The notes under the pieces were generated by a model. That model saw nothing but the letters and a program-made list of their open reading frames with translations. It did not search any database and had not been told where the DNA came from. This document shows positions 13,994 to 54,517 of a stretch of 64,000 nucleotides of DNA, in pieces. This DNA is from Diphasiastrum complanatum. Its lineage: Eukaryota > Streptophyta > Lycopodiopsida > Lycopodiales > Lycopodiaceae. How positions within the stretch are numbered: the first letter of the stretch is position 1; each line of letters starts with the position of its first letter. The stretch covers positions 13,866,477 to 13,930,476 of the forward strand of contig CM055111.1 of assembly GCA_029204225.1 (NCBI GenBank), given 5' to 3'. The translations under genes and the position numbers were made by a program.

Positions 13994-15787
13994 ATGGCAT
14001 CCATAAGTCCTATCTTTTGGATTCTAGTGATAGATTGAACTCTTCAAATTATTTAATTTGGAAGTTAAGAATGGAATCCATCCTTATCATGCAAGATTTG
14101 ATGGATATTGTGAATGGAGAGGAAGATGAGCCAATCCATCCACAAGAAGCAACTAAATACAAGAGAAGGTGCAAGCTTGCACTCCATCCATTGTATTAAG
14201 ATGAATATTGCAAATGATTTGCTCAAAGAAGTAGGAGCATGTACCTCAGCCCAAGAGGCTTGGGAGACTCTTCAAAAGATCTATGAGTCCAAGGACACCT
14301 CAAGGTTACTTTCCCTCAAGAACCAAGTTCTTCAATGCTTCCAAGGGAGGAGTGAGAGTGGACATCAACTTGTTTTGAGAATAAAAGATTTGAACAAAGA
14401 GCTTACTTATGTTGGTGAATCTATTAAAGAGAGTGACCTTGTGCAAATAGTTTTGAATGGCTTATGTAGTGATTTTACTAACCTTGTCCAAAGTTATGCC
14501 ATCATGGAAAACTTGCCTACAATTGAAGACCTTCAAAGTGTGTTTATGGCCGAGGAGAGTAGGAAGGCTCATATCAAATCAAGGATGGAGAGGCTCTCCA
14601 TCAATGATGGTGATGACAAAGCCTTATTTTTCAAGAGCAAAGGCAAAGCAAAGACCAAGGGAGGAGCATTCAAAAGGGAGCAAGCAAAGGATGGAGATCA
14701 AGGAGGATCCACATCCTCATCATCACAAGTCACGCCCAAGAAGGACAAATCTAAGATAAAGTGCTACTATTGTAGCAAGATGGGGCATTATGCCTCGGAA
14801 TGCTTCAAGAGGAAGAAAGATCAAAGCCAAGCCAACATTGGACAAGAGGAGGAAGAGAGCTATCACGAGGACTCACTCATGATGTCAACCTTTTCATCAT
14901 CAAATGTCAAAGGTGAAGATCCTCTGTGGATAGATAGTGGGGCTAGCTCCCACATGTCGGGTAAAAGGGAGTATTTTTCTCAACTCACACCTTATGTAGG
15001 ACATATAAAGTCCATTTTTACAACAAATGATCATGAATGTAAAGCTGAAGGTGTGGGATCCATTCCCTTATGCTTAGGATCTTCCAAGAATACTAAGATA
15101 GATGGTGTTCTCTTCATTCCTAGCATCACTAAGAATTTGCTTAGTGTTGGCCAACTTTTAGATCATGGTTTCATTGTGGAGTTCTCTACTAATGTGTGCA
15201 ACATCAAGAAAAGTGGGATGATCATAGCAAGGGGAACAAAGTTTGGGAGGTTATTTAAGCTTGATGCTTTTGTCAATCCTAACCAAGTTGTGATGGTAGC
15301 CGAGGAGACCAAGATGACCACATTTGACTTGTGGCACAAGAGGCTTGGTCACATCAACACCAAGTCCATGGAGGCTATGTGCAAGGAGGAGCTTGCTCTA
15401 GGCCTTCCAATATCCATGGAAAAGGAGGAAAAGGCTTGTGAAGCATGTGCTTTGGCTAAAGCACATAGGTTGCCTTTCTCTAACATTATCACTAAGACCA
15501 CTCACCCTCTTAAGTTGATTCATTTGGATGTACATTTTGCTAGCACAAAGAGCAATGGTAGAGCCACAATGTTTGTGATCTTGAATGATGAATCCTCTAA
15601 GAATCATATTGGGAAAGATATGGTTGAGATCAAGGAGGAGCCTGATCAAGAGGAGGAGCAAAATCCGAGAGCTTCAACTATTCCAAGGAGAGCCACAAGA
15701 GCAAAGATGGAGCTATCAATGCTTATTTTTGTGGACAAGGAAAGGAAAGCTGGAAAGGGGGGGTACATTTTGTACTTCATCTGCTGA
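13994..15787 (+). pseudogene. Copia gag-protease-integrase (truncated polyprotein)
   Basis: Gag: LMDIVNGEEDEPIHPQEATK, then IKMNIANDLLKEVG and LVQIVLNGLCSDFTNLVQSY (UBN2-type gag). Zinc knuckle CYYCSKMGHYASEC (CX2CX4HX4C, about 14762-14803). Aspartic protease LWIDSGASSHM (about 14926). Integrase zinc domain HKRLGHINTKSM with CEACALAKAHRLPF (about 15334-15477). The integrase core stops soon after HLDVHF and is replaced by an acidic stretch ending at 15787. Near 14187 a 4-bp duplication (CCATCCAT) shifts the frame: the upstream part reads in one frame from about 14017 and the downstream part in another to 15787. No reverse transcriptase follows. This codes for the structural and processing part only, and with the frameshift is non-functional. 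Confidence 0.85.
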
Positions 15788-25789: not shown

Positions 25790-27050
25790 AATTTTTATAG
25801 GGATTGACATTTTTGGTAGTTTTTAAACGTTTCTTCAATTTGTTGTTTGCAACATTTTGGTACTTTTCGATCTACTAGCATTTAACTGTTTGGTGCTTTT
25901 TAATATTTTGGAACTTTTGGTACTTGTGATATTTCAAGTGTTTTTAAAACTGTTGTTTTGTACTTTGAGACTTGCGGTAATTTTTGTACGACGGATTATT
26001 TTATCTGTGGTACTTTGGTATTTTGAAAAGCTTACAAACAGCTATTCAACGTGCAATGTGCAACAACAAGAAAATTATGTCCGACTGCATTTTGACATTT
26101 TTTGAAACCTAAGACTACCAAAGTTTGATACTATTGGTACTTGTTGGTTTGTTTTTTTGTTTTAAGATTGAAGTCTTGAAGTCGTTTGCCACTGATTCGT
26201 ACCAATGAAGCAATATTTGTATTGAATGTTTGTAATGAAGCAATATTTGTATTGAATGTTTGAATATTTGTATTGGTACTACTGGAACTTATCGTGTAAC
26301 AATTTTGATACAACAGACTAACAAAATAGGTTCTTTTATAACTTGTGTCTCATTTTCATTCTAAAATCATCCAAATTGGTCTACTGAGATTTATAATGTG
26401 TACCATTTTTATTTTAGAATCTACAGCATTTGGTTCTATTTTTTAAAAATTTCGTCGTATTTGCAGTTTGCACATGTCTTTTTGGTACCGCTTTAGTGTT
26501 GTTACACCAATTGATAGTATTACTCCAGTAGTCGCAGGGTACTAATTTTACAAATTTTGTACTATTTTGGTACTATATTTGTGTTGGTAAAACTCTTGAA
26601 TACAAAAGAATGGTACTACAATAACTTATCGCATACCAATTTTGATCCTCCTAACTACCAAATTAGGTTATTTTATAGTAAGTGTCTTATTTTTATTTTA
26701 AAATCTACCAAGTAGGTACTATTTAGACTTCTCGTGACCATATTTTACGCATAAAAACATTTGTACTATTTTTGTAATGTTTACGTGTTTCTGAAACTTT
26801 TGAGTACCAAAGATTGGTACTATTTGAACCTATCGTGTAACAATTTTGATCCTCCAGACTACCAATTAAGATTCTTGTATGTTTAGTACTTTGGTACTAT
26901 AAGATGCTTTGGTACTTTAGTACTACCTGTATATGATGCTTTGGAACTACCTACATGTACTTTCTACCGAGCTGCACCAATGTCCGAGTACTAATTTTAC
27001 AAATTTTCTACTGTTTTGGCACTATTTTTGTGTTGGTAAAACTCTTTCAT
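25790..27050. repeat. Degenerate tandem region rich in TTTGGTACT
   Basis: TTGGTAC or GGTACT recurs dozens of times. Larger diverged units are visible around 26270, 26610 and 26815, each with ACTTATCG(T/C)(G/A)TA.CAATTTTGAT and (A/C)GACTACCAA or a close variant. A perfect 30-bp tandem copy (AATGAAGCAATATTTGTATT and on) lies at about 26202-26261. Looks like an old satellite or minisatellite. No coding content. Confidence 0.6.
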
Positions 27051-27449
27051 TAGAGCCCTTTTTGGACTCAAAAAGGGCCTCTTACTTGCCTAAACAAGTT
27101 TTCTAATCATAATTAATTTAGTGCTAATCAATCCTACGTGGCACCTTTACCTTGGGTTACCATACAAGGTGAGCAAGAGTTAAGGCCTAAATGTAGGTCT
27201 CATTTTCATAGACTATTGTAGGTTATTTGCATAGACTATAATAGGCAACTAATAGGTAGTTTACAAATTACAACTAGAGTAGGGTTAGTATAGGACGACC
27301 TTTCATTGTCCTAACTACAATAGGACCCTAGGGATGGAAACTAGTATATGCCTAATAAAGCTTATATCATGGTTAGTTCACACAAGGTTGATTAAGGTGT
27401 GTTTCTACTGTTCTACATAGATTCTTTTGGGAAATTCGACATCTTCAAG
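27051..27449. other. Upstream flank of the multi-gene element; no gene
   Basis: Holds a short inverted repeat GCCCTTTTTGGACTCAAAAAGGGC (27055-27078; each arm is under 12 bases) and several CTAT(A/T)GTAGG-like repeats. It may contain the promoter and the outer end of the 27.4-35.4 kb element, but no terminal repeat was matched at the other side. Confidence 0.4.
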
Positions 27450-30140
27450 ATGACAACCAAGTATCACTTACATGTGAAGTTAGAGAAGGATTATGCGACC
27501 ACCAAAGCTGCATGGGGTGTTAACTTAAATCCGTATGACATGCATTGTTGGAGATTAGAAGGGAAAAAACATATTGACCTATGGGTAAGAGGTGATTTAT
27601 ACCCTCATAATCCACTGGTAGATGCTCCTCCTAAATTTTCTGATGTACATAGTTTGTTAAGGTTCGTTGGGGATGGTCGGAATGGACTGCTTGGCTATTG
27701 TCAACCAATGGATTCTCGAAGAATTCAAGCTGAGACATTGGCAAATACGGCAAACATTCATATATTGAGTATGAATGACAATTTAAAGTCATTGCATGGA
27801 ATAAATATGAAATTGGAGCAGGAGATAAATGGTTTGAAAATAGAGCTTGCCAGTTTTGTCGCAAAAATTGAAGAATTGCAATCTTCAATCAGTATATTTC
27901 AGAGAACAATATATGGCTTACAACGAAAGCGTAGAGTCTCGATGGATCAGCAAGCAGAAAATGAAAACACTAAGAGACACAAACTAGAAGCTTTGGCACC
28001 AGGTGGTGGTGCCAGTAAAAGACGTATGAGGGACACAAAAGAGTTCTTGAAAAAGACGGTTGGAAAAGATTTTAGTGCCGAAAAATACATGAAACATTTT
28101 TTGAAGGGTAAAGATTTGATTAAGATTGTGGAAGATGAAACAAGTGATTCAATTCGCTTGAGAATTGCAAAAAAGCTAGTCGACAAGTTCAAGCCAAATC
28201 CAAATGTTAAAGAGATGGTGTACGCATGTGACCAAGGAGGTGTGAGTCGCAAGGGGTATAGAGCTTTGAAGAAGTATATGAAACGCTCTGACAAAAATGG
28301 GTTAAAACGCCATCAAATAATTCCTACTTATAAACTTGTCGAATCCGCCAAATGAGAATGCAATTCGATATTGCTCTCTGAATTAGGAGAGTTTCAACAT
28401 ATTGAGGATTCTTTTATAGTAATCAATAAGAAGAAAGGACCTCCGAGATGTTTTCGTTATTATCAAGGCAATAATATATTCTTAGATCTGGAAAAGGTCC
28501 AAGCGATGATGATCCGACATTACAAAGTTAGAACAAATGGTAAGAACATTTATTGTGAATTTCAGTTTTCAATTGTATGCTTTTCTTCAACTAATATGTT
28601 TTAGTAATGAAATTTCTGTTTTACAGATTGGGGAGGTAAAGTTATATTTGTTATTAAGTTGGACAAAGCAGAAATCGTAAAAGGGCGTAAACTTGAACGT
28701 GTCACAATCACCTTGATGAATCGTGAATTGCAACAGTGTGGCGGAAGTTATTGTAAAGAATTTAGCGTGCAATCCGAAAATCACATATGGTGGATAGCTG
28801 CATTTGAAGTTCTTAAGGAGTCTCACGACGTACTGGAGTGGCTATTTGAAAAATGCAGTATATCTAAGATAATACATGCACAAAATGAAGGCAAATTGCT
28901 CAATGTTGAAGGAGAAAGCTTTGCTGTAGAATGGCACCTACCTGCTGATTTGAAGACTTTGAAATGCATGTACGGTTGTGGTCTCTGTGCAAATGCAAAG
29001 AATTTTTGTATATATTGTATGTTTGAATCTGGGCGGAACAAAAGTATTTTAAATTGCAACCAACGTCTTCCATCAAATAGGCACAATCTAGACAAAGCTT
29101 GGAGTCCTGTGTTGAACATTCCTCTCGAAAGAGTCCATTTTTGCACAATGCATGGTGAATTACGAATACTGGACAAATTATTATTTTTGCATTGTTGTTA
29201 CGCATGGAACATGCAGCCCAAATCAAGAGCAGATGTTAGCATTAGAAATCTAGAGATAATTTTATCCGATATGGGATTGCACGGGGGCCACGTGAGTCTT
29301 ACCAAAGACGTTGAGATGAGTGGAAAAACGCAAGATGTTCCAGCAAAAGTTTCAATGGGTGGTGCGAAAGCGAGACACCTATTGTCAAATCATACTGCAC
29401 GTGAAAGCAGTGTTAAATGGGGTACTGGAGGAAAATATGTCAATGCACAACAAATATTGGCTCAGATCCTCGCATCTCAAGTACACGTGCTAAGGTTTGG
29501 CAAGTATTTAATGCCTTGTCACAAACTATCAACAAAAAAATTGTGAGAGATGAAGATTTGAATAGATACGCAAGAGAAGTCAAAACATTTACTGAATTGA
29601 TGATCGATGCATGGGGAGAAACACACATAACTCACTATATGGTATGTGTGTCTCATATTTTTTACTTTCATATTTATGTATTTGTAAAGATTTAAACTAA
29701 TACAAATTTTCTATGAACAACACATCTTCTATGCTCATGGACCTTGGTTTATGAAAACCTATGGATCATTAGCTATTTGGAATACGCAAGGCATGGAAAC
29801 GAGTCATTACAGGGCAAAGGCTGCGTATTTAAAAAATTCACGGCATGGCGGAGGAAAGGGTCTTAGCAATGCATTGGTTGAGATATTCCAATGGTTTTAC
29901 AGAGGAGTTTTGGGCCGAGGACACTTTCAAAACACAAGAACTGAAGAGTTGTGTTCAATGATCTCCAATTCAAATTCAGTCAGAAAGACAGCATGGTAAT
30001 CCTCTAATGCTAGAACAAGGCATCAAGAATGGAGGATGTTTAGAGTCCGAGTTGGAAAGAGGTGGATGCCGAGGACACCAACATCCAATGTTTTGGAAAA
30101 CAGCGCTAGAGAAACTACAGAAACTGATGAGATGAAATAG
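27450..30140 (+). pseudogene. Transposase-like protein of unnamed family, multi-exon, decayed
   Basis: ATG at 27450 (MTTKYHLHVKLEKDY). The first exon continues to 28539 with a coiled-coil-like segment (about 27770-27900), a basic region, and one in-frame TGA at 28353. The intron 28540-28626 has GTAAG and TTTACAG ends and joins in frame (RTN-DWGGKV). The next exon has WHLPADLKTLKCMYGCGLC then CIYC (about 28930-29010) and LNIPLERVHFCTMHGELRI (about 29112), resembling uncharacterised repeat proteins with a LGL....C.YC and IPL..V....LH pattern. A frameshift lies near 29470-29490 (VWQVFNALSQTINKKI continues in another frame), then a GTATGT donor at 29642. The last part holds YGSLAIWNTQGMETSHYRAK, a TAA at 29997, and a tail to 30140. 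Role as a transposase is inferred. Confidence 0.55.
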
Positions 30141-30273
30141 AAACAATTTATGCTGAACTGTAATTTGAATATTCCTTTGTGATAAATATTACTGTCGAAT
30201 TGGATTGTTGTTGTAAATAGAATTTATTTTATTTGGTTTTATAGTAATATCTATTTTTGGATACACGTCCCTC

Positions 30274-30280
30274 TATATAA
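30274..30280 (+). promoter_or_regulatory. TATA box of the 30.4-kb gene
   Basis: TATATAA stands 120 bp before the ATG at 30400. The 30 bases after it (..GAGTGGGGG..CATTT..CACTTC) resemble those after the TATA box of the H3-like gene on the other strand (33778-33772), which suggests a shared promoter type. Confidence 0.6.
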
Positions 30281-30399
30281 GAGTGGGGGTTTTCATTTTG
30301 TTGTCACTTCTTGCTTTGTTGAAATTTGTTTCCTCGTAATTTAGCTTGTCTTGTTCAATTATATTACTAGTTTGTTGGTCAATTAGTGTTCTTAGTTGC

Positions 30400-31876
30400 A
30401 TGACAATGTCGTGCCCTAAAATAGAGTTGGCCAATCTGCTAGCCCCCACAGAGTTTTTAGATCAATTAGATCGTATTTATTGTATGTTTACCGGTAGAAT
30501 AGACACGCTTGCCACTCTACGGGCTAATGCGGATGCATTCACGTACGTGAGTGAGTATATAGATGAAACTTTGAAGCCTTATGCCATACAAATTTCTGGC
30601 TCAACTATCATGTGGATTCCGTATAACTTGCTTAGTTATATATGGAAAGGAGATAGACCCTTTATCGCTCGTCTCAACAGATTTATTAGTCACTTGGATA
30701 ACGATCATTACTTGGAGCTGACGAAGGATCAGCTGAAAACTTTTGATCTTGAAAGTGTAGGAAAAAAGTTTCTATCCGGTGAGATTACTATTATTTTTTT
30801 GCTTAATGAGTTTCCAGCGACTGTGGCCAGCAACAAACACAATCCTAGTGAGCAGGTGAACGAGATGAACGACCTGCGTGAAGAGGAAGATTTATCTGCG
30901 AGCACGAAGCAATCTTGGCTGCGCAAGAGGCAACAGGTGCATCCACATCAGCGGAGCCAGAAGATACAGATGAGTTCGATGATGTCGTGCTTCGAATCCA
31001 TGGCCTTGCTCCAATCATCATTGATGGGTAGGAGTATGTGTTCATGCATGACTTGCAACATATTCTCGGCTTGCGAGAAGATGAGATGCTGGCAACATTG
31101 GTAAATTTGCAGAATGGCAGTTCCACTTTCGACCACACCCAGCCCGACGACATGTATGAGAAGCTGATCGGGCATGACACGGACACCACCGAGCAAGCAC
31201 TGGCAAGGGTGCTTTGCCAATTGAAAACGCTTCAACCACCACCAGTTCAAACGAGGCCATTCGAGGTACTCGAAGGGAAAACTACTGACGTGAAGTACAA
31301 AGGCAAAAGAATTAACCTTGCGCAAACCGAAGACATTGATGAAGGCACCGAGGCAAGTCTGACCCAACAATTCAACTTGCATGTGTTTGTTATGTTTTTT
31401 TGTCTTCATTATACTCATTTTGCAATAATTTGAACCAAATGCAGGATGCAGTGGAGCTTGATGCATTTGCAATGCGAAGGGGTGGCTCTCGGGAGAAAGT
31501 TGAAGCAGGAACTCTGGACAGGTCTATGTCCCACTACATTGGGAGCTTGCCCAACAACTTTATTTTCTGCTTCAGCAACAAGTACAGCCCAGATGGATAG
31601 ACAGAGCTTCTTAAATGCAAAGCACTCTCCAAGGACATTGGTGAGCTGGACATGTCACCGTCAGCGCCAAAGGCTTACTGTGTCCTCCAAAAAGCCGTTT
31701 TGAATGATTTTTGCCCTGGATTCGAGACCTGGCTCATTCTCTCGGGATTAATTGGCCCTTATGAGGATGAGGGAGATGCTCCTAAATTAGCATTAGAAAT
31801 TTTAAAACCAGTACTGTCATCAGAGAAGCAATTAGAGAAGCTGAAGTCCTCTTTGAAGGAAATGGATCAAATGTGA
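30400..31876 (+). pseudogene. Unknown protein, second plus-strand gene of the 27-35 kb element
   Basis: ATG at 30400. The first frame (to about 30890) reads YCMFTGRIDTLATLRANADA and LLSYIWKGDRPFIARLN, ending with an acidic stretch. A one-base shift near 30890-30910 moves to the frame HEAILAAQEATGASTSAEPE, with an in-frame TAG at about 31030, then FMHDLQHILGLREDEML and KYKGKRINLAQTED. A likely intron ends at 31443 (AAATGCAG); the last exon reads DAVELDAFAMRRGGSREKVE, SHYIGSLPNNFIFCF, a TAG at about 31598, and KAYCVLQKAVLNDF to a stop at 31874-31876. No domain recognised. The broken but long co-linear frames show it was once one protein of about 400 residues. Confidence 0.5.
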
Positions 31877-32000
31877 ATAAAGATTTTGTCCTTTTTTTCT
31901 TGTGGACTCTCCTAATTCTCTGTTGTCATTATATGATGTGCTAATATATTGAATTTAGAATTTAATTTTATTTCTGATAAAGATTTCTCCTCCTTTTTTT
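31877..32000. other. 3' flank between convergent genes
   Basis: AT-rich sequence following the stop of the unknown plus-strand gene. No clear polyadenylation signal other than AATAAA-like bases at 31876-31881 (GAATAAAG). Confidence 0.3.
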
Positions 32001-32235
32001 GCGTGACGTGATTTTCACGCCAGGGCGCGACCAGCGCCCGTTTGACCAGGTCAAACATCCCCTGGTCGTGCCTTGGCGTGATTTTCATGCTAGGGCGCGA
32101 CCAGGGCCCGTTTGACCAGGTCAAACGTCCCCTGGTCGCGCCTTGGCGTGATTTTCACGCCAGGACGTGATCAGAGCCCGTTTGACCTGGTCAAACGGGC
32201 CCTGGTCGTGCCTGGCGTGATTTTCAGGCCAAGAC
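32001..32235. repeat. 70-bp tandem repeat of nested palindromes, three copies and a part
   Basis: Units start at about 32008, 32078, 32148 and 32217 (spacing 70, 70, 69). Each contains GGCGTGATTTTCACGCC-like and GTTTGACCAGGTCAAAC palindromes, and (G)GCGCGACCAG pairs with CTGGTCGCGCC around the second, so each unit can fold on itself. G/C-rich in an AT-rich surrounding. It lies between the convergent ends of the plus-strand gene (31876) and the H3-like gene (32483). Confidence 0.9.
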
Positions 32236-32482
32236 ATGGAAACCTATCTCATCTACAACATGGTTAAAGAAACTACCATTCTCATAGTACTGAAAAATTT
32301 TAAATCACTGCATTCACATAGATGATACTAAAATTTTCAAATGACTGCATTCACATAAACAGTACTGAAATCAGATATCAAACTCAATCACAACAATTTG
32401 CATTCACACAACCTGAAATTCTGCAAGATACTTGACACCAAATCTTCAGTATATTATAAATAAAATCATGTACATGATATTT
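32236..32482. other. 3' flank of the H3-like gene
   Basis: No gene. Two diverged direct repeats (ACTGCATTCACATA at about 32307 and 32343). Probably 3' UTR of the minus-strand gene. Confidence 0.35.
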
Positions 32483-33656
32483 TTAATTCCGCTCTCTCCT
32501 TAGCCTTCTAGCCAGGTGGAGATCCTTCGGGAGTATTGTGACTCTCTTCCCGTGCACTGCACACAAAAATGAGTCCTCAAAGAGCTGCGTTAGGTACATT
32601 TCTGCAGACTCCGGTATTGCGGACACTGCATCTGCTGTAACTTTGTTCCCCAAGGAAAATTCATCGACTATTTCTTTTACAAGCCTCACAAAAGGGGCCC
32701 TAGGGATCAAAAATTTTACGGACTTCTGATAGCTTCGTATATCCTGGAGCCACTTTGTGATCCTGTGCTTCCTACGCGGTCGAGGAGGTGGTGGCTGCAT
32801 CCTGCGGAGCTCCTTTCCAGCCCATGGTGCTGCACGAGGGGCCCGCCTATCCCTGCGACGCTCTACGGTCCTACTTGGCCAGCTACGGCGGAACTTGGAG
32901 GCGGTGAAGGTGGAGGTGGTGGAGGTGGTGGTGGTGGAGGTGGCGGTGGAGGCGGTGGGGGCGGAGGCAGTGGAGGTGGAGGAGGTGGAGGCGATGTTGG
33001 CGGTGTGGGCAGTGGTGATGGCTCCTGAGATGCAGAGTTCCGTCGCTTTGATGTAGACCCAGCCTTGCGAGGATTCTTTCTTTTTCGCTCGTGTGCTCCT
33101 CTCTCTGACCATCTATGGGTCGCCTTCTGCTTCATCCTTGTTGTGGTCGACATCGGGGTGCCCTCATCAGAACCACCCACCAGCAACGACATCATCGGAC
33201 CCATCACCGGGCTGTGACTTGGAGGTGACACGGTGGGTGTGGTGTCCCCCGATATGCCTAAATTTGATGTGTCCATGCCCATTGCTGGTGGAAATGGGTT
33301 GAAGAAAGAATCATTCAGAACCGGCAACTCACCCGATGCCGCAAGCTCCTCATCTAGGAACTTCATTGTTTCCTCCCGCTCAGTTGCCGTCGAGGAAGGG
33401 CATTTTCTCATGTTGACTGCTGCTGCTGCTGCTCAGTCTGGTCCTCCTGTGCAGTTGCTGTATGGGCCATGTCGTCCTCAGCTTCACGTTGAGTGGCCGG
33501 ATCTTCCTGAGATGCTATAGGGTTGCGACTCCTACTCCTGCTTCTGCTCTCCCGTCTCTCTCTCTCATCGAGGGTGGCTAGTGCATCCCTATGGAGCAAT
33601 GCACTCACTCGGGGATCTCTAGCCGTTTGTTTCGTCCGTGCCATTTCCTTTGACAT
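32483..33656 (-). pseudogene. Histone H3-like protein with canonical H3 tail, long disordered insert and full histone fold
   Basis: The minus strand starts MSKE then MARTKQTARDPR: residues 1-8 after the second Met (33644) equal the histone H3 tail (R2, T3, K4, R8 kept; K9 replaced by Asp). An RS-rich and Gln-rich stretch follows to 33412, then a frame change at or near the (CAG)5 run. The middle (33411-32875, 179 codons) is acidic, then basic, then a proline run of more than 30. An 80-nt stretch with GT/AG ends (32874-32795) joins it in frame to RRKHRITKWLQDIRSYQKS, LIPRAPFVRLVKEI, ESAEMYLTQLFEDSFLCAVH and KRVTILPKDLHLARRLRRER (104 codons with the stop), covering the alphaN to alpha3 helices of H3. 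Loop 1 has the length of ordinary H3, not CENH3. Probably dead or misassembled because of the frame change. It is a histone domain fused behind a disordered linker, inside a mobile-element block. Confidence 0.8.
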
Positions 33657-33771
33657 TGGTTAGCCTTTGAAAACGTATCAGAGAACACGAGAGTTGAAAA
33701 ACAGAGAATTTAAAAAAATTGACACTCTGACACTCAAGGGATGAAGTGGAGAAATGAGGACCCAAGCACCC

Positions 33772-33778
33772 TTATATA
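33772..33778 (-). promoter_or_regulatory. TATA box of the H3-like gene
   Basis: TATATAA on the minus strand, 128 bp before the ATG at 33644. The sequence after it (..GGGTGCTTGGGTCCTCATTTCTCCACTTC, part shown in the comparison at 30274) is similar to that of the 30.4-kb gene. Confidence 0.6.
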
Positions 33779-34013
33779 GTGAAGGGTTCTATTTTTAGTA
33801 AGTGCCCCTATAAAAGTTTTGGCATCTTTTCCAAATATAGTATGTTCTTGTCTAGGCTCATGAGTAAAAATCCTTGGACATCCACAAATGTAGTAACAGG
33901 CATATAAAATGTGACAACGCAAAAGTAATGTCAAAACGTAACCAAATATATTAGAATAGAGTCAAAACACAACCAACTAATTGTGTTTTCTATTTTCCAT
34001 TAGATTAAATCCT

Positions 34014-35374
34014 TTATTCCCATTGGACTCCTAATGTCCCTGTTTGTAAAAATGAAACACATTCATGATCTTTTTCGGCTCGTCTCCGTATCTGCAAAAC
34101 CAGACACAAAGTTAATAATCCTATATTTATTCAACATTATTATTTAAAATTCAGGAATCTGATGAAAATTAGGGACTCACATTTTGTCCATTACGAGTGA
34201 AGACAAAATCTACTAGCACATCAACAAAAGTCAATCCAAGCATATGCCAAAGATCTTCTAGGCTGCACTCCTTATTTATATGAATTTCTCGTATTTCATC
34301 ATGGGGCAAATGTATGGATATCTCCACTTCTTGTTGATTCGTCTCCGCGTCCAGAGGGTCCCATCGGCCATGACCAAACTTATATCGCCTATAAATGAAA
34401 CTTAAGGAGCATGTTTGACGTGAAATATGATACCTTATGGTCATTGTTTCACAAGAGAGCTTACACCTTATTAAATCTCCTTTATGCTCCATTTCCTTTG
34501 AATCCCATGCGACAAATATGTTGTCCAACAATGATGATTCTGTTGCTTTCCATGCCCACATCGTGCTTGTTTCCCTAAAGGGGACCGCCTTAAATATGGC
34601 AACAAATACAGTGATCGGCACAAAGATGCTAGTGTAGACTCGTTTGGATCCGAATGTTGGCTTCATATTACCAATAATCTCTTTGAGAAGTTGCCTCTTC
34701 ATTAATTCAATAGTCAGTTGGTCAACATATGGCCACTCATGAGAATTGATCGCAGGCTCAGAAGTTGGTGCTAATTTGCCTTGGCCAAAGTTTTTTTTTT
34801 GGAACTTCGTACATGTGATCGTAAAAGAAAATGCCCATTTTGATCAGGGCAGAGGATGCCAACCCACCATATATTAGTTCTCCATATTTGGCGTGTATGG
34901 CGGAGAATTTTCCAGTGAAGGACTTCACGTTTTGCCAGTCGAAGCTATTTGAAGGAAAGACATCTGCACTAGGCATTAATGCAACATTATTATCCATTAC
35001 AATGACATAATAATAATTCAAACATAATAGTTAACACAAGAATAAAAGAGGTGAGACCTACAATGTGACTGTATGGTTCTATCAGCAACAGCCACATCCA
35101 ATAAAATATCTCGACGCATGTATACGTGTTGCACATTTGCAAGGTATTCGCCGTTTTGGTCGATCTTGAATTCGTGGATCCTTCCTTTCCAATGGTAGTC
35201 TTGGTTGTTTCGCTTCCTCTTTGCAACCTTGTGAGTTCCTTTGCCCGATGGTTGCATGTAAACCCAGTCAAAAGTTGAAAATGTATGGGGCACCCAATGC
35301 TCATTGGAATCTTTGATGTGTGCAACAATGGAAGCTAGTTGATTCTTGGGCTTCCTTGATTGAGTAGAGGCCAT
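34014..35374 (-). pseudogene. BAH-domain-like protein, three exons, one homopolymer frameshift
   Basis: ATG at 35374 in a good context (ATTATGG). Exon 1 (35374-35058) reads FSTFDWVYMQPSGKG, DYHWKGRIHEFKIDQNG and ANVQHVYMRRDIL; exon 2 (34968-34181) continues ADVFPSNSFDWQNVKSFTGK. Together these give the order of a BAH domain (VYV.., W.GRI.EI, V..(F/Y)YR.(E/D)D, EVF.S...D......I.GK), a fold that reads histone tails and other chromatin proteins. The rest of exon 2 has VPITVFVAIFKAV and KFGHGRWDPLDAETNQQEVE; exon 3 (34091-34014) is a short basic tail. Splice ends are GTCTC/CTAG and GTGAG/GCAG. An A10 run at about 34791-34800 shifts the frame; with nine A the three exons total exactly 394 codons including the stop. 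No paralogue seen in the window. Confidence 0.65.
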
Positions 35375-35476
35375 AATGGATGATGTAATGATAATGTAGG
35401 ATATGCAAAATAGTGTGTAGATCTTCAGATAAGGTGAACCAAAATAAAAAAAATAGAATATCTGTGGAGTATACAG

Positions 35477-35944
<468 letters not shown>

Positions 35945-36149: not shown

Positions 36150-37670
36150 TCCATCCTGATTTATGGATGATCTAGCCTATTATTTTGTGCAGAAACCAAA
36201 CACTATTTCAGAGGCAATGTCAACACCTGATGTTAATCAATGGAAGGCTGCAATGGACACAAAATTTGATTATTTGATCAAGAATCAAACGTGGATTGTA
36301 ACTGAGGTGCCATAGGATCAAAATCTGATTCCATGCAAATGTATATTCAAAGCAAAGTATGATGCTGAAAGAAGATTAAATCGATACAACGCCAAGCTGG
36401 AAAGCTTCTCCTAGATTCCAGATCTGGATTATTACAAGACCTTCAGCCCTATTGTTAAGCATGCTTCAATTTATTACTTCTTTCCTATGTAGTTGCAACA
36501 GATCATGAAGTCCACAAAATGGATGTCCAGATAGCTTTCCTTAACAAGACTATCGAAGAGGAGATTTATATGTCGTAGCTAGAGGGATACAAGCTGAAGA
36601 ATAAGGAGCACCTTGTGTGCAAAATCCATAAGGCTCTGTATGGTCTGAAACAATCACCAAGAGCCTGGTTTCAGAAGATTAACGTATTTCTAATCGAGAA
36701 TGGTTTTATTCCAAACTCGGTAGACTCAAATGTCTATTTCAAGTCTGTATAGGATTCCTTCATAATCATCATTCTTTATGTAGATGATAAGTTATTGTTT
36801 AGTAACCATCTGAATTTGTTGAAAAACACCAAATGCATGCTATCACAAGAATATAGGAGGATGACTGAGCCCATTACTGTCTCGAAATTCAAATTTTTCG
36901 AGTTTGATCCAGTAGACAGATTTTTATCAGTCAACAACGATATCTCACCAACGTGCTGGACAAATATGGAATGACCAACTGCATATTTGTCTCTCGACCT
37001 TGGTTTGAAGCTGTCAAAGGAGAAATGTCCTCAAACTGAGACATGAAGGAGAAATGACTCACTAATGTATGCAATGCTCGATCAACTCTCTTGGTCAGTT
37101 CCTATCAAATCCAAGGCCAACGCATTGGAAAGCTCTCATGAAGGTCATGAAATACGTCCAAGCCACAAAGCATCTCAGCATCTGTTACAGAGGCAGCTAA
37201 TCTATCAATGTCCTCAAAGGTTATATAGATGCAGATTGGGCAGGAGATATCGACACCAGAAGATTTCCTTCTGGATTTGTGTTCTTGTTAAATGAAGGCC
37301 CAATCTCATGGAACAGCTGAAAACAGACTTCAGTAGTATTATCATCAACCGACTCAGAATACATAGCTGCCACAAATGCTACCAAGGAGGCGATTTGGCA
37401 AAGGAACCTGCTTGCAGATATTGACCTTGCCCAGCCGCAGTCAACAACCATCTATTGTGATAATCAAAGCAAAATTGCACTATCTTCAAATCCGAGATTT
37501 CATTCTCAAAGCAAGCATATCAAAATCAGGTATCACTACTTTAGAGAGAAAGTGCAAATCAAGGAAGTGTCATTGGTTTACTGTAGGATAGATTTTATGG
37601 CAGCAGATTACTTCACGAAAGCACTAGAACCTGAAGATCGAAGTTTTTTAAGATCCACATTAAGGGGGAG
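36150..37670 (+). pseudogene. Copia polyprotein: RT and RNase H, decayed
   Basis: RT begins EAMSTPDVNQWKAAMDTKFD with NQTWIVTEVP (about 36210-36310), then MDVQIAFLNKTIEEEIYM with a nearby stop, LYGLKQSPRAWFQKI (36637), LYVDDKLLF (36774). RNase [18 protein letters not shown] (about 37230), LSSTDSEYIAATNATKEA, IYCDNQSKIALSSNP, RYHYFREKVQIKEVSL, FMAADYFTKAL (37595). Stops and shifts break the frame at many points. Gag, protease and most of integrase are missing upstream. The polypurine tract TAAGGGGGAG (37661-37670) leads into the LTR. Confidence 0.9.
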
Positions 37671-38360
37671 TGTTGGATTTGAATGCTCAGGCCCAAATCC
37701 ATTCGTTAATGAGCATCCTAAAAGATGTATATACTTATACTAGAAAACCAAAAAAAAGGTGACTCGAATTTTTAAGCAAAAGATCGAAATTTGAAATGAG
37801 ATTTTCTCATACCAAATCGACTCAACTCGACTCGTTTTTTTAGAATTTCTCGATACCGGATCGATTCGACTAGAGTCGTGATTTCTCGAGCCATTGTATA
37901 TTTTTGATACATGGTATTATTTGATACTGTCAACCAGAAATCCGACCCATGTCGCGACGTTGATAGTCCACCTACTCTGTAAATACATTTATGGTCAGAA
38001 TGACGGCTACCTACTATAGGACACAAATATAGTAAATTAATGTCATGTTTTCAAGGTACTGATCACTGAAATCTAATAATCAATGTGAATCTACAATGAA
38101 ATCAACAGCCTGATCGAATTTATTTTATTCGGTGGGCATTACTCTGTAGCTAACTAGTTTTTGCTCAACAATATTCAGCTGAAACTTATTCTTTGATACA
38201 CAGCCTCGCGCTATTGCTTCAAGCTATTGTACCCATTTTTCAATCAATCAGAGTGCAAGTTTTTGTCTACACTACTAATTTCTTCTATTGCGCATTGCTA
38301 CTGTTCATTCATCTTGATTATTTTGCTGGTAACTGACGCACTTCCGATCCACAACCAACA
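37671..38360 (+). mobile_element. Copia 3' LTR, 690 bp
   Basis: Starts TGTTGGATTTG right after the polypurine tract and ends CAACCAACA, giving inverted TGTTGG/CCAACA ends. Its last 170 bases resemble the LTR remnant at 9625-9790. Confidence 0.85.
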
Positions 38361-43331: not shown

Positions 43332-44457
43332 CATGGTAAAGATGGTCACCATAAGACTAATCATTGCTCTTGAGTTGGTTGATGTTTCAAATAAATGTGT
43401 CAAATGCATTTTTTAATGGTTATTTGGATGAGGACAAATTCATGGAGAAACTGACGGTTTCATCAAGCATGGGATGGAAGACAAGGCGCGCCAGCTCAAG
43501 AGAAGCTTGTATGGCTTAAAACAAGCTTCTACATCTTGGAATGCAAGACTCAATATTTTTCTTATCTCTATTGGATTTACTCCACACTGAGTATGATCCC
43601 ACCATAAGATTTAGTGAAAAAGACATGGTATTTTTATTGCTTTAGGTTGATGATATCATACTTAGTGGAGATAAGTTAGAAGGGATTGAGAAAACTAGGC
43701 AAGATCTATCTAAAGAATTCAAGATGGTAGATCTCGGCCATTTGCACTTCATTTTGGATATGAAAGTACTTATAACTTAAGATTATTTATTCAATTTTCA
43801 ATCTAAGCATGCCCTTTGATTACTCAATATATTTAACATGCATGTAGGATGTAAGCATATACTAGTATCCAATAAAGAGGATGAAAGATACTTCAAGGAC
43901 ATTTCGGGCACACTAGACTTTGGAATCAAGTTTATAGAGATGACTCGATTAACTTGCACGCTTTTAGTGATTCACATTTTGTCGGGGACAAGAAGGATAG
44001 AAAGTCAACAAGTGCCTTTGCAACTTTCATTGAAAAAGGTGCAGTTTCTTGGCTATCAATGAAGCAAGAAACAATATCTCTTTCATCAACTGAGGTCGAG
44101 TACAAGGCTCTAACAACCACAACCAAGGAGGTGATTTGGATGAAAAGGTTGCTTGAGGAGCTCAAAGTGATCAGATCAAGTGTCATTCCACTCATCTACA
44201 ATGATAACATCCCAGCCCAACACCTAGCATCTGATCCAATCCACCATGCTAGGAGCAAACACATAGAAATTGCTCACCATTTTGTAAGGGAGAAAGTATA
44301 AGCTAAGGAGATCTCATTGGAGCATGTTTCAAATGAAGAATAAATTTATGTTATATTGACAAAGCCTCTTCTAAAGGCTGTATTTTTTAAGCTTAGATCA
44401 ACCCTTGGCTTAATTAGTAAAGTCAATGTTATCATCTAGCTAGATTGTGAGGAGGAG
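43332..44457 (+). pseudogene. Copia RT and RNase H, decayed; polypurine tract
   Basis: RT: FIKHGMEDKARQLKRSLYGL then KQASTSWNARL (43460-43550), VDDIILSGDKLEGIEKT (43645). RNase H: SDSHFVGDKKDRKSTSAF (about 43962), AVSWLSMKQETISLSSTEVE (44040), YKALTTTTKEVIWMKRLLEE, HARSKHIEIAHHFVREKV (to 44298), then LTKPLLKAVFF. Broken by shifts and stops. It is truncated at its 5' side at about 43332, where the AT-rich block ends. Tract GAGGAGGAG precedes the LTR. Confidence 0.9.
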
Positions 44458-45894: not shown

Positions 45895-46256
45895 CATTAG
45901 AAGAGTTCTAAATCCAAAAAAGATCATTTGTAAAGATTCTTTTTATATTTTTTTCTCATTTTTTTCTTACACATGGACCAATCAAAACACTCAAATTTGA
46001 AATCTACGTAACGTAACTTTTTGAGTCCACACTAAAAATGGCATAACTTTTTAGTGGTAAGTCCAAATTTAGCGGAGTTTGGTGCATTGGAAAAGCGCTC
46101 GACAAGGGATTTCCAATGATTTCTTACATGACATATTTTTGAGCTACAATTAAAAAGTTATGGCAAGTCAAAAGTATAATTGTTATAATATTTTAATAAT
46201 ATAAACTACATCTTGCACGAATTCTTAAAGGGTCTTTTTGGAGCTCAAAACTAATG
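45895..46256. mobile_element. MITE copy 1
   Basis: Starts CATTAGAAGAGTTC and ends GAGCTCAAAACTAATG. It is about 85-90 percent similar by eye to the copy at 54140-54517. Shared interior includes ACATGGACCAATCAAAACAC and TACATCTTGCACGAATTCTT. Confidence 0.75.
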
Positions 46257-49600: not shown

Positions 49601-52531
49601 AGATGCAGAGTTTCGGTGATTGGACTTTCTGCAGGGAATCACACAAATAGCTCGAGAAGTTTTGAAGTTCCAGCAGCTTTTATCTCTTGATGGCCTTGTT
49701 GGCCAACATAGAAGCTTCACACAAATTTTTGGAATCTTCGGAGGCAGTGGTTGGATCGTTGGATCTTTACCTGTCAATATGGTTCCTCAAGAATCTTTTC
49801 ATCCTCTACAACTCCCGGATTTCAATTCCTCTTGTTCGACGTGGAGAAAAGAGACCCGCTTCCCCTTCAGAGCATCCTTCTAGTGCTTCCCCTTCATGCG
49901 CGCGTCGTGAAGCCCACTGTGATGTTGCGGATTCCTTGCTTGTTTCCTCTGGCCTGGTGGTGCCATACTGTCCGCCCCATCTTCGCCACCAGCTTTCTTC
50001 CTCTTCTCGCCCCCGTGTTCTATGTGCAAGCTGTGGTCGCCTTTATGTGCAAGGTGCCGGTCTTTCTCGCCATCATAACGCTTGCTCTGCTTTTCGTCAA
50101 CAACTCGCATTAACCAATGTCGACCTTGCACCTCATCCTGCTCCCACTTCGCCACCTAACTCGGCTTGGACCTGGATTTGCCCCCTTGATATTTTGACCG
50201 TTTTTCACTTGGGTTTTCCTCGTCCTCGTCTTTATGCACACATTCCCTTTGCCTTGCGCTTAGATGTCCAGAGAGCTTTGTCCTTATCTTTGTCTCATAT
50301 GGCTTCCAACCCTTCTGATATTGCAGCTTGGCATGCCTTTTTGCTTTTCCCTCTCTGGTGTTTGCCTCTGCCTCCTCGGGGTGGTGATGCTGGTCATAGG
50401 GAAATTCGCAACAGGATTCATCGCTTTATGTCAGGAGATTGGAAAAATTTGCAAGAAGAGCATTTCCTTCGTTGTCAGGTGCTGCTCATGGGATTCGACT
50501 TCGGATGGTGTTTCTATACCCCCTATTCATCGTCGGTTGCGTCACAGTGTTTTACTTGGGCAAGTGGGTGAGTATTCTTGTGCAGCTCGTGCCTTAGCTC
50601 CTACAAGTCCAGCTACTCCTTCTGCTGCCACTCTTCAGGCTTTGGAGCTTCCTCATCCATTGATAATTGACTCCCTTCCCTCTTTTGTTGAGGACTTTGA
50701 ACCTGATTCCGATTTGCAACTCTCAGAATCTCATTTTCTTAATGCTTTTCTATGTAGCCCTCATCTGTCAATTGGGGTCCCTTCTAGTATGGTTTTCGAG
50801 CATCTTCGTGACTGTTTTTCTCCTGATGACTCTACTAGCGGGTTTGGTTTGCTCTTTCAAATTTGCTCTTTCGTAGCATGTGGCCGTATTCCTCTTTCTA
50901 TTGCTCGTATTCTTGGTGTTGCTCGTTTGATAGCCTTGGATAAGCCTGGCGGTGGATTGCGTCCCATTGCTGTTGGAGAGGTTTTATACAGATTGGTTTC
51001 TAGGGCTCTTGGTTTTCAGCTTCGTGACAGTTTTCATAACCACCCGTTTCCTCATCAGTTTGGTTGTGCTACTCCTGGCGGTTGCGAGACAATCGTACAT
51101 GCTTTGCGTGCTACCTTGGATCTTCATCCAGATTGGGTTGTCCTTCAAGTGGATGTTAAAAGTGCTTTCAATTCTGTTTCTCAAGGGGCGATTCTCCAAG
51201 AACTTCGTGCGGCTCATAGTCCTCTCACTCAGCTCATCCCGTTTGTTCGCTCTTTTTATTCCATGGATGCGCCTCTATATTTTAGTCATGCTTCTCGCTC
51301 AGGTGATGTTTCAGTTATCTCGTCTGCTGATGGTATCAGACAAGATGACCCCTTGGGTGGTGTTCTTTTTGCTTTGGCGCACTTTCGGGCATTGCATGCT
51401 TCTTCTGTTGCTTTTCCTTCTTGTTTGTTTCCCTCTATTTTTGATGACACACATATTGTGGGACCTACTAATGACGTCTTTTCGGCTTTCCCACATTTCT
51501 CTCAGCAACTTTCAGCTTTGGACCTCACTGTCAATCCCTCTAAGTGCGTTGCTTGGTGTCCTCAGGGCCTCCTTCCTGAGCTCCCTTTACCTACAGGTTT
51601 CAATACTTTGGTTGATGGGATTCGAGCGCTTGGTATTCCTATAGGTTTCTCGGATTTTGTGGCTTCCTCTTTGCGGGACACTTTGGCGCACATCTTCGTC
51701 ACACTAATTTGCTACCAAAAGCTTGGCAATGCTCAAGTTTCTCTAGGGATTCTCACTCAATGCTTCGTTCAACGGTCAAGTTATATTCTACGGTGTGTTC
51801 CTCCCTCTCCTGATGTTTTGGCTTTGCTATAGGATTTCGATAATACTTTATTAGATATTCTGGGTCGCTTGATGGGTTCAGAATCCTTTCGTATTCCCAA
51901 TGGTCAGTTCGTTAAGCGACAAGCCTCTCTTCCCGCTTCGTCCGGAGGTGTTGGTCTTTCTTGCACAACTTCTATTGCTCCAGCTGCTTTTATGGGAAGT
52001 TGGGCCCTTGTTGCCTCTGCACTTATCTCTCGGTTTCAGCAGGACAACAAGCCCATTCTTCTTGATTCAGTAGCTCATGTGGAAACATGCATTCTTCCTT
52101 TCCAACAACATCTTCGTGCGGCCAAGGATCTCATCCCTCCACCTGTGCGAGCTTCTTTGTCTCTCTTTGAGACTTTGTTTAGCCATCAGCGTGCTCATTT
52201 TCAAAAGTATCTTTTGGAGGGCTTCCACTCACATGCTTTCACTCAGCTTCTCAGTGATTCACCTTCCAATGAGACTCGGGCTCGCCTTCTGTCTTGTGCA
52301 GGCCCGGGTGCTGGTGCTTGGCTTGTTGCGCGCCCTATTGTTCCACAATTGCGCCTTTCTTCAAAGTTGTTTCTCACCGCTCTTCGGGTTAGGTTGGTTC
52401 TCCCTCATCCAGTGCTGGTTGGTTTGACAAAATGTTCCTGTAGTCACCTCGTTGATCCTATTGGTGGAGAGCGCACCGCGACTCATGATTCCATTCGTGA
52501 CGTATTGGCCTCTATTGCACATGAGTGCTAG
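49601..52531 (+). pseudogene. Non-LTR retrotransposon, R2-like (zinc finger, RT, C-terminal CCHC), decayed
   Basis: The N-terminal frame (from about 49687) has a C2H2-type finger VLCASCGRLYVQGAGLSRHH (about 50011-50070). A frame change near 50480 leads to the RT frame (to 51832): ARLIALDKPGGGLRPIAVGE (RT block 1, about 50919), VLQVDVKSAFNSVSQG (block A, 51139), DGIRQDDPLGGVLFALAH (51330), IFDDTHIVGP (the YxDD position, 51439), LTVNPSKCVAW (51525). After a TAG at 51830-51832 the same frame continues to 52531, ending CSCSHLVDPIGGERTATHDS, RDVLASIAHEC, like the CCHC region of restriction-like-endonuclease elements. DD in IFDD keeps two catalytic Asp. One shift and one stop break it. G/C and C-rich codon use differ from the neighbouring AT-rich DNA. 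Confidence 0.75.
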
Positions 52532-54139: not shown

Positions 54140-54517
54140 CATTAGAGGAGTTCTAAATCCAAAAAAAATCCTTTGTAAAGATTCTTTTTATATTTTTTTT
54201 CAATTTTTTCTTACACATGGACCAATCAAAACACTCAAATTTGAAATCTACGTAACGTAACTTTTTGAGTTTACATTTTGATTCCACACTAAAAATGGCA
54301 TAACTTTTTAGTGGTAAGTCCGAATTTAGCGGAGTTTGGTGCATTGGAAAGCGCTCGACAAGGGCTTTCCAATGATATGTTAGATGACATGCTTTTGAGC
54401 CACGATTAAAAAGTTATGACAAGTCAAATGTATTAGTGTTATAATATTTTAATAATATAAACTACATCTTGCACGAATTCTTAAAGGATTTTTTTGGAGC
54501 TCAAAACTCCTCTAATG
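54140..54517. mobile_element. MITE copy 2 with 13-bp terminal inverted repeats
   Basis: Starts CATTAGAGGAGTT and ends AACTCCTCTAATG, exact reverse complements. The interior matches copy 1 at 45895-46256, with a 15-base insertion (TTTACATTTTGATTC) near 54270. No target duplication can be defined. Confidence 0.8.

Follow-up and report, generated by a model that had tools for sequence, protein, structure and literature searches.

A multi-copy DNA transposon of four genes in Diphasiastrum complanatum carries an H3-like histone gene beside a RAG1/Transib-like transposase

How an exact histone H3 tail and an H3 fold come to lie together inside mobile DNA, whether the two belong to one gene, and what a mobile element might gain from such a gene are the questions raised by a locus of the lycophyte Diphasiastrum complanatum. 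The whole stretch of DNA that was analyzed, here called the window, comprises 64,000 nucleotides, and the H3-like gene (gene C) occupies positions 32483..33656 on its minus strand. We found that gene C belongs to a DNA transposon that is present in many copies and has four genes, among them this H3-like gene and a RAG1/Transib-like transposase, which gives definite form to the claim of an earlier, sequence-only reading that this gene lies within a mobile element.

In the window, the minus strand from 33656 to 33411 encodes MSKEMARTKQTARDPRV..., an 82-amino-acid segment in which MSKEM-ARTKQTARD is followed by RS- and Gln-rich sequence until a TGA ends the tail frame, and both the ARTKQTAR start and the Asp at the K9 position had thus been read correctly. 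A middle segment in a second frame (32866..33432, minus strand) passes from Met/Ser/Thr-rich sequence through a basic stretch to poly-Pro, and a third frame (32486..32872, minus strand) holds a basic linker and the H3 fold, the fold-bearing open reading frame being 33112-32486. The fold was likewise borne out as complete (Pfam Histone, 4.9e-28; best solved chain H3.1, 1.7e-27). Tail, Pro-rich middle, and fold lie in three frames with no single open reading frame, and the two disruptions fall within or beside tracts of Gln and of poly-Pro. Over 1174 aligned bases the window gene is 95.3% identical to an uninterrupted copy elsewhere in the genome, L009.

The intact copies that the sequence-only reading had proposed to look for do exist. 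In L009, a single open reading frame of 417 amino acids runs from MSEEMARTKQTARD... to ...LARRLRRERN, its fold matches Pfam Histone at 6.8e-29, and 327 residues separate the tail from the start of the fold, so that the earlier estimate of about 250 residues was too low. Tail and fold also share one frame in L048 (440 amino acids, reading AWTKQTAR), L049 (399 amino acids, ARTKQTAR), and the near-identical L050 and L051 (366 and 363 amino acids, ARMKQMAR), the exact ARTKQTAR being kept by two of the five (L009 and L049). These five were selected for long open frames, and 5 of 29 tail-bearing loci is therefore no frequency. Tail and fold are, as had been proposed, parts of one gene, but the window copy cannot encode them as one protein. 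An ordinary processed H3 pseudogene is ruled out by the uninterrupted frames and by the family comparison described below, and the idea that no other copy has tail and fold together is ruled out by the same five loci.

A histone search of the 1.74-Gb genome returned at least 153 matches (best 150 of 6325 first-look candidates scored). Among the matches listed, 13 canonical H3s score above 163 bits and all others below 110 bits; three of the canonical loci were read and the tails of eight were compared. The 20 lower-scoring loci that we examined, mostly with long open frames, fall into two families, 13 in family 1, to which the window copy belongs, and 7 in family 2. A query with the tail found at least 150 matches, more than chance would give (61-100% identity and E values between 5.6e-39 and 3.3e-19 for the best 150 of 463 candidates), and the copies lie on many contigs, many of those listed having stops or frame breaks. 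Across 29 tail-bearing loci (the window and 28 others, of which L055 contains part of the gene only), ARTKQTAR is exact in 12 and K4 is kept in 27, and position 9 reads D in 27, G in 2, and K in none. Several of the departures are C-to-T changes at CpG, which probably reflect the decay of methylated copies.

The body of the family 1 transposon spans 27048..35849 of the window; matches to 13 family 1 loci fall in 27045-35849, with long pieces 90-98% identical, and most of these loci are fragments, carry internal deletions or rearrangements, or end at the limit of the 10-kb regions used. The left terminal inverted repeat (CATTAGAGCCCTTTTTGGACTCAAAAAGGGCCTCTT.., 27048..27084, plus strand) was defined by terminus comparison and a genome pattern search. 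The window copy lacks its right terminus, having lost about 90 bp by comparison with L010, L018-L021, and L024, which continue that far to the end. L020 is a complete element of 8947 bp from terminus to terminus, with (CATT)AGGGCCCTTTTTGGACTCAAAAAGGGCCTCTTC inverted at both ends with small differences. A 33-bp terminus pattern matched the genome 854 + 825 times with at most two mismatches, the termini of short derivatives being counted, while a reversed-pattern control gave 0 + 0; derivatives of about 1 kb with both termini are represented by L038-L040. RAG1/Transib termini begin with the consensus CACWRTG and are accompanied by a 5-bp target duplication. The termini found here (CATTAGGGCC) are not of this type, and neither a 5-bp nor any other consistent target duplication was found in seven terminus pairs (L020, L033, L035-L038, and L040, with L039 excluded because one end is altered), and we therefore call the element RAG1/Transib-like rather than a Transib element.

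The transposase, gene A, lies on the plus strand at 27399..30000, with exon frames at 27399-28355, 28659-29546 (broken here), and 29751-29999; its exon structure was taken from other copies of the element and its open reading frames from the window. A RAG1/Transib core fold was found for P0080, a homologue of gene A, so that the fold is shown on this homologue rather than on the window gene itself. Judged by pattern, with the spacing of the DDE residues and of the CxxC/HxxxxH zinc site in RAG1/Transib proteins as reference, both features are present in the transposase relatives: D1 occurs in 29, D2 in 37, and CxxC in 25 of 48 sequences, many of them partial, and HxxxxH...E occurs in 5, P0074 and P0078 among them. 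P0091 and P0092 have an HGGG-type stretch nearby without HxxxxH...E. A Pfam search of 47 members gave a single match to RAG1 (E 0.0019) alongside further weak matches, and a PDB sequence search of the relatives gave none.

Gene B (30346..31890, plus strand, end approximate) was defined from open reading frames; its protein reads MSSPKIELANLL... and contains the motif IDGQEYVFMHDLQHILGLREDE, has no Pfam match above the cut-off, and is matched, as judged by eye, in P0118/P0119, two gene models of Adiantum. Gene D (34030..35374, minus strand) has three exons at 35374-35021, ~34952-34169, and ~34091-34030, with inferred intron limits, and the gene has homologues. A BAH domain guessed by eye in gene D proved unsupported, as the weak Pfam matches are to other families and none is BAH; there was no PDB match, and a predicted structure with a pLDDT of 34 was useless. 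Neither a RAG2-like nor a PHD protein was recognized among genes B and D in Pfam and PDB searches. P0114 had been considered as a transcript and was rejected, since it reads through an intron and is thus no evidence of expression.

In family 1, genes A and B point rightward and genes C and D leftward. Genes B and C converge on an array (32007..32231) in which a 70-bp palindromic unit is repeated 3.2 times in tandem; the array is matched in other copies and might serve for binding of an element protein. At the other end of gene C, a TATATAAG box (33771..33778, minus strand) forms a putative TATA box 122 bp before the first ATG, a distance kept in 20 of the 21 loci with sufficient upstream sequence (the window counted) and changed to 116 bp in L023. 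The linkage of genes C and D is not confined to the window, as at least 72 of 150 tails have a same-strand D exon upstream of them, at a distance that in most cases differs by no more than a few bases from 525 or 617 bp, and no other arrangement occurs among the matches listed; the count is a lower bound based on 147 of 149 listed D exon matches, and chance would produce such a pairing for about 1 in 8000 tails. An Rfam scan gave no match at the gathering threshold. Elsewhere in the window we noted by eye, from their motifs, Copia-like retrotransposon pieces at 14114-15787, 37321-37743, and 43885-44301 and reverse-transcriptase-like frames within a pyrimidine-rich stretch at 50264-52531, perhaps a LINE-type piece. 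A repeat of about 370 bp is present in two copies (45895-46252 and 54140-54508) some 8.25 kb apart and 91-96% identical by pieces.

Family 2 (L014, L016, L017, L022, L026, L027, and L028) is deeply diverged, its fold being 51% identical to that of family 1 (L014 versus L009). Where its start is intact (L016, L017, L026-L028, and L046), it reads MDRRKQTRRD or MDKRKQTRRD; in L014 the start is not intact and G stands at the Asp position. The family 2 tail is of about normal length, and the protein instead carries a C-terminal extension of 200 residues; this extension (PPPPPPPNFYTYIDSDEYLRFEK...) is common to L014, L016, L017, and L026-L028. Among six loci inspected, frames of A, B, and D lie beside the H3 gene in L014, L016, L027, and L028. 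Identity between the families amounts to 54% over 67 residues (E 1e-19) and 44% over 161 (E 6e-47) for gene A, 36% over 89 (E 2e-14) for gene B, and 32% for gene D. The order A-B-C-D is common to both, and family 2 has A and C on the plus and B and D on the minus strand, so that B and C are each reversed and a single inversion of the B-C pair would not suffice. Because so diverged a family has the same four genes, the H3 gene included, gene C is either older than the split or was acquired twice. Another subfamily (C13:7888589, C12:57910291, C18:39901609, and others), in which gene D is some 67-70% identical and the open frames are long, is perhaps younger.

The divergence between the families also bears on whether the gene C protein has mattered. 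L009 and L014, compared over 76 codons of the fold, differ at 27 first, 21 second, and 49 third positions, an excess at third positions showing that the protein was kept while silent sites changed. Comparison with the host H3 L001 over 71 codons gave 23, 15, and 53 differences, and the tail encodes the same residues as eight host H3 genes with 7 to 8 of 9 third positions different, which shows that gene C is no fresh copy of a host H3. Read from its codons, gene C thus shows past constraint on the protein, not selection on present copies. Purifying selection inside family 1 was considered and dropped: in copies sampled by their tail (20 regions, with fold traces in 12 and an ungapped full fold in 7), the dN/dS of the fold, 0.66 with n=7, does not fall below the 0.60 and 0.58 of shifted frames (bootstrap 0.39-1.24), and that of the linker is 1.01 (n=12; shifted 0.71 and 0.57). 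A fold value of 0.34 (n=26; shifted 0.86 and 1.21) comes from copies whose choice relied on their H3 score or an open frame and is biased for that reason, and tail and middle, at 0.62 each, lie inside the shifted-frame range of 0.43-0.78. Exons of the other genes, represented by few or equally biased copies, gave 1.07 for the transposase (n=7; shifted 0.34 and 0.46), 0.58 for B (n=10; shifted 0.60 and 0.54), and 0.29 for D (n=4; shifted 1.17 and 0.71).

The fold of family 1 is about 53% identical to canonical H3. At 27 positions, whose roles in the nucleosome, such as DNA contact and H3-H3 pairing, we take to be as in ordinary H3, 19 residues of family 1 and 21 of family 2 (with one loop residue removed by hand for register) are identical to H3, and 17 are kept in both, including R69, R83, H113, K115, R116, T118, K122, and D123. 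The other 10 are altered in at least one family, R63 being Pro in both and C110 being Leu in family 2. Because these 17 positions are kept, the plainest reading of gene C is a nucleosomal H3 variant. We propose tentatively that this variant acts against silencing, a reading that we hold at somewhat less than an even chance. In plants, transposons are silenced mainly through a loop in which H3K9 methylation feeds DNA methylation. The gene C fold would pair with host H4 and enter chromatin, perhaps that of the element itself, where a tail that keeps R2, T3, and K4 could be read or methylated as active chromatin. Since K9 is replaced by Asp and the long spacer lacks an ARKS motif (a pattern search of L009 found no such K27 site), H3K9 methylation would be impossible on this protein and the usual K27 site would be missing, so that the element might stay outside the H3K9me2/DNA-methylation loop long enough for transcription and cutting, and the Pro- and RS-rich spacer may lift the tail off the core or recruit other factors. 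The Asp at position 9 in both families and a putative TATA box of its own are consistent with such a variant. The window gene has two candidate start codons, at 33656 and 33644. The first places MSEE before ARTK and so would bury the end of the tail, and a free A1 would need the second ATG, reached by leaky scanning; the start-codon context rule favors the second (G at -3 and +4) over the first (C and T).

The same features can be arranged around other roles. The H3-like protein might be part of the transpososome, where, free or in nucleosomes and bound by another element protein or by host K4 readers, it would steer or activate the RAG1-like transposase; the fold of the transposase homologue, the K4 kept in 27 of 29 tails, and the presence of the four-gene set in both families are in line with this, and vertebrate RAG2 reads H3K4me3, yet genes B and D include no recognized RAG2-like or PHD protein, and we regard such a role as unlikely. 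Even less probable to us is a soluble decoy, in which ARTKQTAR on a long flexible arm would occupy K4 readers or writers outside nucleosomes. An exact tail on a 327-residue low-complexity arm in L009 suits a decoy, as do the long spacers of 12 of 53 tail-bearing database hits, but a decoy has no need of nucleosome-contact residues, many of which are kept, the upstream ATG may block a free N terminus, and in family 2 the arm is short and both A1 and T3 are gone.

Descent from a centromeric H3, with gene C acting at centromeres or favoring insertion there, is suggested by family 2, whose loop 1 is one residue longer than that of H3 and which joins Arabidopsis CENH3 (96/75) in a tree of 91 columns. 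That join carries a long-branch warning and bootstrap values that had not settled, and it assumes that the CENH3 sequence used is correct; moreover, family 1 has a loop 1 of H3 length and no resolved placement in the tree, the tail is H3-like, and the copies lie on many contigs, so that a captured CENH3 appears improbable. A CENP-T match in the window (1e-4, below the cut-off) is unspecific, ordinary H3s showing CENP-T too. We likewise give little credence to gene C as a captured H3 fragment carried without function. Copies sampled without regard to the fold do look neutral, and stops or frame breaks are common among the copies listed, as expected of a passenger; against this stand the third-position excess between the families and relative to host H3, the same residues encoded by different tail codons, and the place of gene C between B and D in both families.

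Relatives in other plants extend the comparison. P0011 and P0013 read MARTKQTARKD, with the fold 186-187 residues further on. The two are joined in a supported clade (97/87) by P0045, an Adiantum nelumboides protein with no tail in its gene model. The gene D relatives P0118 and P0119 in Adiantum continue, by eye, into a gene-B-like stretch within the gene model, and a transposase relative, P0112, occurs in A. capillus-veneris. An ARxKQ tail is present in 53 of 66 H3-like database hits, and 12 of the 53 have a spacer of more than 80 residues, and ARKS occurs in none of these 12 and in 30 of the other 41, a contrast that is a hint only, since the pattern itself demanded ARxKQ, so that the K4 part is built in, and H3s with a normal spacer are conserved for other reasons. 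Stretched H3s that read ARKD or AWKD are P0011, P0013, P0028, and P0042, and ARKS is absent from P0011, P0013, and P0028. In P0028, P0042, P0060, P0063, and P0064, all of them stretched H3s, the K4 tail is exact or nearly so. Scans of IMG/VR with P0028, P0013, and P0080 found no relative.

Our results lead us to a broader speculation, which we consider a long shot, that a lineage of RAG1/Transib-like transposons in seedless vascular plants makes chromatin of its own from a K4-markable H3 without K9 and K27 sites and that its transposase acts on DNA packaged in this way, combining escape from silencing with targeting through the tail, in parallel to RAG and H3K4me3 in vertebrates. If the gene C protein does enter nucleosomes, a parasite would supply the very substrate of silencing with the silencing sites removed, which makes possible a direct test of whether K9 on the H3 of one locus is necessary for transposon silencing. 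The occurrence of a RAG1/Transib-type transposase together with an H3K4 tail in a plant also bears on the use of H3K4me3 by RAG.

No cellular transposon with a core histone gene is known to us, and an exact-word search of open-licence papers, which is weak evidence of absence, found none. With the canonical plant H3.1 and H3.3, gene C shares the histone fold, the ARTKQTAR tail, and many nucleosome residues; it differs in having D for K9, no ARKS, a spacer of 327 residues (L009) versus about 50, and a transposon as its carrier, and from these differences we judge that it is an H3-like variant, not an ordinary H3. Compared with RAG1, Transib, and RAG-like transposons, the element resides in a plant, has termini reading CATTAGGG instead of CACWRTG with no target duplication found, and carries H3 as cargo with no recognized RAG2. 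Three other systems come close. Fungal DNA transposons carry TET/JBP dioxygenases, thought to allow escape from silencing (PMC12730594), so that an epigenetic gene rides on a DNA transposon in both cases, there an enzyme that counters DNA methylation and here a structural histone. VANDAL transposons of plants encode VANC, a sequence-specific anti-silencing protein (PMC5735166, PMC10398659), and would share with our element an anti-silencing gene on a plant transposon, a role that is inferred here, although VANC is no histone. Bracovirus H4 is a histone encoded by a virus, with a tail that acts after the protein joins host nucleosomes (PMC5423620, PMC9145170); it resembles gene C in being a parasite-encoded histone and differs in being a viral H4 in an insect, whereas gene C encodes a putative nucleosomal H3 on a plant transposon.
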